NCBI GenBank assembly: GCA_028715885.1
Contig: JAQUQX010000008.1
Coordinates: forward strand, 1 to 54,674
Length of the DNA: 54,674 nucleotides
DNA from: Candidatus Methanoperedens sp.
GTDB taxonomy: Archaea; Halobacteriota; Methanosarcinia; Methanosarcinales; Methanoperedenaceae
Reading direction: 5' to 3'
Part shown: positions 49,373 through 51,203 of the stretch, one piece after another
How positions within the stretch are numbered: the first letter of the stretch is position 1
How the letters are laid out: each line of letters opens with the position of its first letter
Made by a program: the position numbers and the translations under genes
The notes under the pieces: model-generated
The model's input: the letters and a program-made list of their open reading frames with translations, nothing else
Database searches by the model: none
Told to the model about the DNA's origin: nothing

Positions 49373-49687
49373 ACCGCTTAAACTCCATAGCTTAATTTAT
49401 TGTTACCATTAAAATAGATTGTCCCGTCGCTGCAGCTTTTTTAATCATATTATATACATTTATTTAACTTAAAAACTGTAAATAACTGTTTTTATCATTT
49501 TAATTTTTATTTTTTTGTTTTTTATTGAATATAAAATCAATAATTATCTAAGTATTTAAGCCAGCATGAAAATTGAACATATTTAATCTATAAATACTAT
49601 CAAAATTGAATAGATTATTAAAATATGTGTTTTAAGTGTATATTTTTTGATTTTAACATTAACTGACTATTATTTCAACTGAAAAGC

Positions 49688-49734
49688 TTATATATAATGA
49701 CTTACATCTATTCACATATCGTTCACAACGATAT
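49688..49734 (+). promoter_or_regulatory. TATA box and operator palindrome
   Basis: TTATATATAA at 49688-49697 predicts transcription start near 49718. The 19-bp palindrome ATATCGTT-CAC-AACGATAT at 49716-49734 lies right on that point, the classic place for an archaeal repressor to block RNA polymerase. Confidence 0.65.
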
Positions 49735-49748
49735 TTCACCACGAAGGA

Positions 49749-49817
49749 GACATCGGAGGGGAATCCGGATGTCGCGCTGTCCGCCTCGAGCGGCGGGCAG
49801 CCTCCAATTTTTTGAGG
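49749..49817 (+). ncRNA. Structured GC-rich leader that can sequester the ribosome site
   Basis: Stem 1: GACATCGGA (49749-49757) with TCC(G)GATGTC (49764-49773). Stem 2: CTGTCCGCC (49777-49785) with GGCGGGCAG (49792-49800), one G-T pair. Stem 3: CCTC (49801-49804) with GAGG (49814-49817), which is the ribosome site 4 nt before ATG 49822. GGAGG at 49755-49759 could compete for CCTCC. This looks like a riboregulator or attenuator; ligand unknown. Confidence 0.5.
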
Positions 49818-49821
49818 AATT

Positions 49822-50343
49822 ATGAAAATACGACTTGACATCGAAGGAAAAAATGAAGGGAGCATGTATTATAAAGGACCTGGCTGCGCCGAACTGGCAG
49901 TTACCTATCTTAATTCAATCGAAGCAGACGAAGTGCAGGTACGCCTTGATAACGATGACGGTAACAGGGCGGATGCGGAGTTCTCAGGGGAATTCCCGAT
50001 TTTATCTGCAACCAAATTTATAATGTCGGCTGCAAAAAGCAAAATAAAACAGCCAGAAACATCGTTTTCAACAAGTATTGATGAAACCCAGCCCCTTACA
50101 TTGAAAGAGCGGCTGGAGATGTTCCTGCGGTTCGAATATCCCAGGATATGGTTCTCATCCCTTGACGTAAAACGGCAATATGAGGCTGTGTACGGTAAAA
50201 TCAGCCTGAGTACAGTATCTACATATCTGGCAAGAATGTACAGGGACAATATACTTGAGCGAAAAGGCAACCGTATCCAGAGAGAATACCGGTTTAAAGA
50301 TGAAATGTCTATTATAAATATGGAACATGCGTCTGTAAAATGA
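49822..50343 (+). CDS. wHTH regulatory protein, unknown
   Basis: 173 aa. N-terminal beta-rich half (KIRLDIEGKNEGSMYYKGPG...EFSGEFPILSATKFI) and C-terminal winged helix (FSSLDVKRQYEAVYGKISLSTVSTYLARMYRDNILERKGNRIQREY). Likely DNA-binding; may be its own repressor at 49716-49734. GAGG at 49814 gives the start. Confidence 0.65.
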   Translation: MKIRLDIEGKNEGSMYYKGPGCAELAVTYLNSIEADEVQVRLDNDDGNRADAEFSGEFPILSATKFIMSAAKSKIKQPETSFSTSIDETQPLTLKERLEMFLRFEYPRIWFSSLDVKRQYEAVYGKISLSTVSTYLARMYRDNILERKGNRIQREYRFKDEMSIINMEHASVK

Positions 50344-50951: not shown

Positions 50952-51203
50952 TCATTCTTCGCATCCGAGTTCAGCCAGTATGTTTCTGGCTATATCAAGA
51001 GATTCTTCTTTACTCTTAGCTTTTATAAGCATCCTGCCGCTCGGGTACATTGAAACTTCCACCCCTTTGTAATTTAGCAGTAATATGTGTTTTGTAGCAA
51101 CCCTGGTGTTGAAGCTCAGGCTTGCGCCGATTAAATCAATTTTAATATTGGTGCTAACTTCAAATGCTGTCCTGCCCGAACACAGTCTTACCGAAATTGC
51201 CAT
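50952..51203 (-). CDS. Small beta-rich protein with TBP-like half repeat
   Basis: 83 aa. VEVSMYPSGRMLIKAKSKEESLDIARNILAEL resembles one half of a TATA-binding protein repeat (strand-strand-helix) but is too short to be TBP. Function unknown. Confidence 0.5.
   Translation of the reverse strand: MAISVRLCSGRTAFEVSTNIKIDLIGASLSFNTRVATKHILLLNYKGVEVSMYPSGRMLIKAKSKEESLDIARNILAELGCEE

Follow-up and report, generated by a model that had tools for sequence, protein, structure and literature searches.

To our knowledge, archaeal trans-acting sRNAs with known targets are few. The sRNA162 of Methanosarcina mazei is trans-encoded and pairs with the MM2441 mRNA; according to the published excerpt, an unpaired stretch binds this transcription-factor mRNA at the translation start region, probably lowering translation (PMC3510493). 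From the same species, sRNA154 and sRNA41 use loop-borne or anti-RBS sequences to pair at mRNA translation start regions (PMC5867862, in excerpt). In L7Ae autoregulation, an RNA motif by the Shine-Dalgarno (SD) sequence of an archaeal 5′ UTR gives translational control (PMC5539422, in excerpt).

The leader described here is predicted to meet a trans-encoded sRNA in the same order as sRNA162. As for sRNA162, an unpaired stretch complementary to the target start region was found, partly by construction of the search. The sRNA may have a transcription unit of its own: a TATA box occurs at constant spacing in families f5 and f3, the f3 RNA being a riboflavin-gene leader, and a promoter and a T-run occur in the genome studied here (G000). 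The target of sRNA162, however, is an ArsR-family gene inside an operon and not a 5′-leader hairpin loop, and its homologues are given, in the excerpted text, for two close relatives only, whereas the present pair spans several families (PMC3510493). In contrast to the system presented here, sRNA154 and sRNA41 have several targets, in nitrogen or acetyl-CoA metabolism, and the excerpted text describes no conserved hairpin landing site for them (PMC5867862). The L7Ae motif is a protein-read k-turn, according to the excerpt (PMC5539422), whereas the present loop is complementary to another transcript. Our searches of the open-licence literature returned no description of the leader, the downstream protein or the sRNA.

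The window, i.e., the whole stretch of DNA that was analysed (54,674 nucleotides), is contig C8 of a Methanoperedens-like genome. The gene behind the leader encodes a winged-helix (wHTH) protein (Table 1) with no match in Pfam or NCBIfam. Structure prediction gave two N-terminal β-β-α units (pLDDT 93 when modelled alone) and a C-terminal winged helix. In the fold search, the winged helix resembled the DNA-binding domains of PadR, Fur and RosR, which are generic relatives only, and the N-terminal unit had no clear relative (best Z of 5.5, to p19, below the trusted level). The gene is single-copy. It was detected in 95 of 119 relatives by sequence search and in 171 of 237 class genomes by profile search, with no match in the 30 g19 genomes and in four from g20, two genera of family f5. 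No viral relative of the protein was found; a viral pattern scan matched at least 120 stretches, which we took as chance given the short pattern. We also observed that f5 homologues, e.g., L070 2024-2998, have long proline/glutamine-rich linkers joining the N-terminal unit to the winged helix. Two genes past the wHTH gene, an 83-aa protein (window 50952-51203, minus strand) showed weak, below-cutoff similarity to TBP (E 0.022).

Table 1. Features of the leader, the downstream gene and the candidate sRNA. Positions are those of the window unless a contig is named.
Feature	Position	Strand	Basis or remark
Conserved inverted repeat TTTCAACTGAAA, overlapping the BRE; possible DNA operator	49673..49684	+	
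TATA box	49688..49696	+	TA-ATA columns 1.00 identical, 30 leaders
Three direct TTCAC repeats (49711, 49722, 49735) across the predicted transcription start	49711..49739	+	
19-bp palindrome of the preliminary description	49716..49734	.	Not conserved
Hairpin 1, invariant loop GGAGGGG (49755-49761)	49749..49773	+	Covariation
Predicted sRNA-binding site CATCGGAGGGGA	49751-49762		Within hairpin 1; complementary RNA in own genome
Hairpin 2, sequence-variable stem	49776..49801	+	Covariation
Pyrimidine tract CCTCC, can pair with hairpin 1 loop or GAGG	49801..49805	+	
Shine-Dalgarno GAGG	49814..49817	+	Sequence, leader alignment
Gene, 173-aa protein	49822..50343	+	Two β-β-α units (1-75) and winged helix (about 90-160)
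Candidate sRNA	G000:C22 (L376) 19153-19092	minus	Promoter, loop, terminator

The alignment of 30 distinct f1 leaders, including that of the window, kept one order of elements: the TTTCAAYTGAAA-TATA promoter, GTTCAC near the predicted start, hairpin 1, hairpin 2, the CUCC tract and GAGG. A structured leader with an archaeal promoter and a winged-helix gene behind it, as outlined in the preliminary description, was borne out. Hairpins 1 and 2, the two GC-rich hairpins noted there, are real RNA structures. Together, 99.4% of their 504 cells were paired across the 30 leaders, and 8 of the 18 pairs had changes on both sides. Such changes affected 30 cells, compared with 9.4 in shuffles, none of which (0/500) reached 30, and the pairing was destroyed when the partners were slid. 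The compensatory changes that had been suggested as a check in homologous leaders therefore exist for both hairpins. In hairpin 2, the stem varied freely, with changes on both sides in seven of ten pairs and 100% of cells paired. The hairpin 1 core was 96% identical, whereas identity was only 36% in the stretch between the hairpins and 41% at fourfold-degenerate codon sites; TCGGAGGGG occurred in all 30 leaders. The structure and conservation of the leader are direct observations. The RNA fold of 49715-49850 had a z of -2.64, with 3 of 200 shuffles equally good.

Two other roles for the f1 leader were tried and rejected. A leader peptide would begin at the hairpin 1 AUG, 50-60 nt upstream, from which open reading frames start; this AUG occurs in all three frames, is AUG-stop in 8 of 30 leaders, and neither frame nor peptides are kept. 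A transcription attenuator would need the T-run after hairpin 2, which is not kept in relatives: five or more T were counted by eye in 24 of 30 f1 leaders, and none were noticed in other families.

The promoter had been correctly recognised: the TATA box reads TTATATATA and is preceded by a purine-rich BRE. Upstream, TTTCAAYTGAAA, which overlaps the BRE, is kept in f1 leaders, and the TTTC and TGAAA columns of the inverted repeat listed in Table 1 had 0.87-1.00 identity in the 30 leaders. The 19-bp palindrome, once proposed as an operator, is present as a perfect 8-3-8 inverted repeat, ATATCGTT-CAC-AACGATAT, but it occurs in one genome only and is at chance level. Of 2000 Markov simulations of the 381-nt region, 31% contained one or more perfect inverted repeats whose arms were 8 nt long (spacer 0-10), and in the other 29 leaders, which lack the palindrome, the best arms are 3-6 nt. 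The conserved element in this region is GTTCAC, often as two or three direct TTCAC repeats, of which the middle GTTCAC is the most conserved. Transcriptional autoregulation via the TTCAC repeats or TTTCAAYTGAAA is possible.

The third hairpin, previously proposed to cover the ribosome site, fared less well. CCTC (49801-49804) and GAGG exist, but the conservation of the hairpin is unsupported and it shows no covariation: 81.7% of the CUC:GAG cells were paired, a value reached by 350 of 500 shuffles. Single-sequence folding predicted the SD to be paired, with differing partners, in all 27 scorable leaders (three of the 30 f1 leaders had no scorable SD). Hypothetically, the CUCC tract would fit the GGGG of the hairpin 1 loop better than GAGG. 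In this arrangement 96.4% of cells pair; we present it as a hypothesis because no changes on both sides were seen.

The G-rich loop contains GGAGG or GAGG, and it might act as a ribosome decoy or standby site that pairs with the 16S tail and holds the 30S subunit near the true start, with no trans RNA. The tail TGGATCACCTCCT was found in six of seven genomes searched, and its duplex with the loop (-10.4 kcal/mol) is more stable than that with the real GAGG (-5.6). We consider this reading very unlikely, as the tail calls for GAGGUG whereas the loops read GAGGGG. The invariant G pairs with a C of the sRNA, and the 16S tail has an A there, giving a mismatch. Moreover, the invariance of the loop is far above that of an ordinary SD site.

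The element is not restricted to f1. In other families, too, this wHTH gene is preceded by loops of the form (T/G)GAGGGGA, frequently as tandem copies. Of 60 distant loci (f2, f3, f5 and genus g3 of f1), 59 had one or two same-loop hairpins before the gene, the exception, L246, being cut by a contig end; because the exact string GAGGGG served to find these hairpins, loop invariance is given by construction for each hairpin, though not for each locus. In 62 aligned distant hairpins (12 of 74, mostly first hairpins of f2, were left out), 87% of cells paired and 66 cells were changed on both sides, compared with 18.5 in shuffles, which is likely a lower bound because some second-copy hairpins were misaligned. 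With covariance model R1, built from the distant hairpins, 92 of the 237 class genomes gave a match at an E of 1e-4 or lower, including G204 (f7), counted by match alone, position aside. The gene was present by profile search in all 92. In G070, the match and a gene fragment lie on different contigs; in G042, one further copy occurs, on a contig of its own. Among f5 genomes with the gene that were outside model building, 30 of 32 had an R1 match on the same contig, and in the remaining two (G157, G184) the gene start lies beyond the contig end. In the window's own genome, the f1 model gave a meaningful score at this leader locus only, and a search of the 30 f1 genomes for ATCGGAGGGGN1-3TCC away from the locus returned five scattered matches, none recurrent in kind. 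Both f6 genomes kept GTTCAC and GAGGGGAUGGAU with no clear hairpin, and the element was lacking in the ten f7 loci read.

Some secondary R1 matches were rejected: at ordinary ribosome sites of ftsZ (L261) and of IS66-like transposases named by eye (L256, L257, L260, L262, L284), and inside coding regions (L276, L285, L291). One f5 genome (G060; L260 754-791) has about 35 copies of a transposase-bearing repeat, each with an identical strong ribosome site picked up by the hairpin model. We also compared N-terminal units with hairpins. The protein has two units and the leader one motif hairpin in f1 and f3, and one unit occurs with two hairpins in f2 and f5; the relation is suggestive, yet it is broken by g13, g3 and f6.

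A compact, conserved and covarying leader RNA could also be read by a small molecule, as in a riboswitch, or by a protein other than the wHTH protein. This seems to us scarcely probable, since hairpins of 25 nt offer little room for a ligand pocket and essentially one gene has the element. At the gathering score, Rfam returned one tRNA only and no match in the window or in the sampled leader and sRNA loci. Such a reader would also leave the complementary RNA described below unexplained.

The sequence UCCCCUCCGAUG, the complement of 49751-49762, has one intergenic site in 1.25 of the 2.09 Mb (60%) of the window's own genome. The site belongs to a candidate sRNA that comes after a gene read by eye as srp54. 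TTTATA lies 24 nt before GGGGCAGCGG, the hairpin, which has a 13-nt loop, CAUCCAUCCCCUC, is followed by UUUUUCUAUUUUUU, and the locus has a U-rich terminator (T-run). The 13 letters of this loop are also found in the f3 seed. The 12-nt perfect match to hairpin 1 gave a predicted duplex of -23.5 kcal/mol (opening costs of 6.2 and 5.5), and the loop-only pairing gave -15.5 (opening costs of 5.2 and 0.7). An intergenic 12-mer match alone is not rare, as 383 of 5000 shuffled hairpins also found one. The weight lies in the loop, the promoter, the terminator and the shared seed taken together. The f1 sRNA was seen in one genome only, and no compensatory change links it to the f1 loop. We also observed that an ftsZ-like ribosome site in one Methanoperedens genome (L261, about 1074-1112) reads CATCTGAGGGGATGAATATGG; nine of these letters complement the sRNA loop, and the site is a possible second target.

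A second RNA was also found in f5 and f3. Weaker R1 matches included intergenic sites with GUUUGAGGGGAUGRAUGG. Of the 65 f5 genomes that have the gene, 53 contained the exact TTTGAGGGGATNNATGG once and the other 12 lacked the exact pattern; of the 46 without the gene, one had the site, which there reads GATACATGG. In f3, the TTTGAGGGGATNNATGG site occurred in 12 of 17 genomes, with one or two copies each: in nine of 13 with the gene and three of four without a detected gene. The co-occurrence of site and gene follows clades, and hence reflects few independent events. The f5 site sits between rtcB and a TGT_C2/PUA gene. The f3 site is just upstream of a RibD_C gene or lumazine synthase, both read opposite to the motif strand, and the f3 RNA antisense to the wHTH leader (L292-L303) is the 5′ leader of these riboflavin genes and not a free sRNA. 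A link to riboflavin supply is possible. No counterpart of the second RNA is known in f2. In genus g13 (L208 3954-3975, minus strand; L209 2542-2563), a short minus-strand hairpin with CCATTCATCCCCTCA and a T-run comes after an acetolactate-synthase-like gene, and it is probably this genus's version of the sRNA.

On the antisense strand, the outer stem follows a TATA box at a distance of 22 nt in f5 and 23 nt in f3, in different genera and over variable sequence; in part of the rows the automatic spacing was wrong or absent (42-43, 70, 103, -35, none; 26 in L293), and those rows were read by eye. In consequence, the transcript carries the complement of the motif, CCAUYCAUCCCCUCAAA. This segment lies in a stretch that is unpaired in the consensus structures, within kept outer stems (the f5 alignment used 14 of 19 sRNAs; near-identical ones were left out). 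The complementary loci, the antisense-strand promoters and the co-occurrence with the gene are direct observations. In all 21 genome-matched cases, leader and second RNA can form 14-20 contiguous pairs, and in eight of them 20, beyond the 17-letter search pattern; 15 complementary letters are given by construction, as the f5 and f3 loci were found via the leader motif, and only the strand, the promoter, the extra pairs and the free letters are independent of the search. At the two free positions, leader and sRNA agree within each family: leader GA faces sRNA UC in f5, and leader GG faces sRNA CC in f3. Whole-RNA duplex energies overlapped the best shuffles and were left unused.

The same double-stranded letters thus occur in opposite orientation at both loci, and wHTH proteins usually bind DNA. 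One could argue that a DNA-binding protein recognises these letters as duplex DNA, at the wHTH gene in one orientation and at the second locus in the other. We regard such a DNA site as highly improbable, because stems that covary and change freely around a constant loop suit RNA and not DNA, and because the letters at the second locus fall in an unpaired RNA stretch.

It is also conceivable that the wHTH protein, perhaps through its N-terminal β-β-α units, binds its own leader loop and blocks translation, as in the archaeal L7Ae/k-turn precedent (PMC5539422, in excerpt). Essentially a single locus in each genome has the element, genomes lacking the gene lack it too, and tandem units would suit a dimer. 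The UGA...GAU letters would allow the G.A and A.G pairs of an L7Ae k-turn or k-loop, and the closing C-G is lost in many rows (GAUA, GAUU). We find such autogenous control unlikely. The second RNA comes from the complementary strand and carries the complement, not the same hairpin. Moreover, the winged helix resembles DNA-binding domains and the N-terminal domain has no clear fold relative.

Our preferred reading, which we hold to be reasonably probable, is that a trans-acting small RNA targets the leader and represses the wHTH regulator throughout the order. Hairpin 1, or the tandem hairpins in relatives, would present the G-rich loop (U/G)GAGGGGA, and the separately promoted second RNA would present the complementary CAUCCCCUC in an unpaired stretch. 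Pairing would begin loop to loop, may extend through the hairpin, and would lower translation of the wHTH protein. The bound sRNA might block the 30S site close downstream; alternatively, in f1, sequestering the loop may free the CUCC tract to cover GAGG. Pairing with CCCCUC would explain the invariance of GAGGGG. From these sequence data we infer joint expression of the two RNAs, their pairing in vivo and a repressive outcome, and likewise the role of the f3 RNA, itself part of riboflavin-gene leaders. Repression is favoured on two grounds: the pairing site lies a short way upstream of the SD, where a bound RNA could block the 30S subunit, and sRNA162 of M. mazei is proposed, in the excerpt, to act in this way (PMC3510493). 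What the preliminary description missed was that the loop is invariant, is spread over the order and occurs in tandem, and that a trans RNA is complementary to it. With this RNA, the mechanism would shift from an operator plus translational hairpin to an sRNA landing site.

More tentatively, at a confidence that stops short of probable, the sRNA and its hairpin-loop target may have been kept paired through the diversification of the order, which covers ANME-2-like methanotrophs and methylotrophic methanogens. The sRNA would have changed sites (after srp54, beside rtcB, inside riboflavin-gene leaders), with the seed and main target fixed. In f3, the leaders of two riboflavin genes would double as the sRNA, tying flavin supply to the regulator.

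The archaeal trans sRNAs with known targets compared here are confined to one genus. If true, an order-wide pair would open archaeal sRNA targeting to comparative genomics, and the pair gives a test system in culturable methylotrophic methanogens. It also points to an uncharacterised single-copy regulator worth study in uncultured methane oxidisers.
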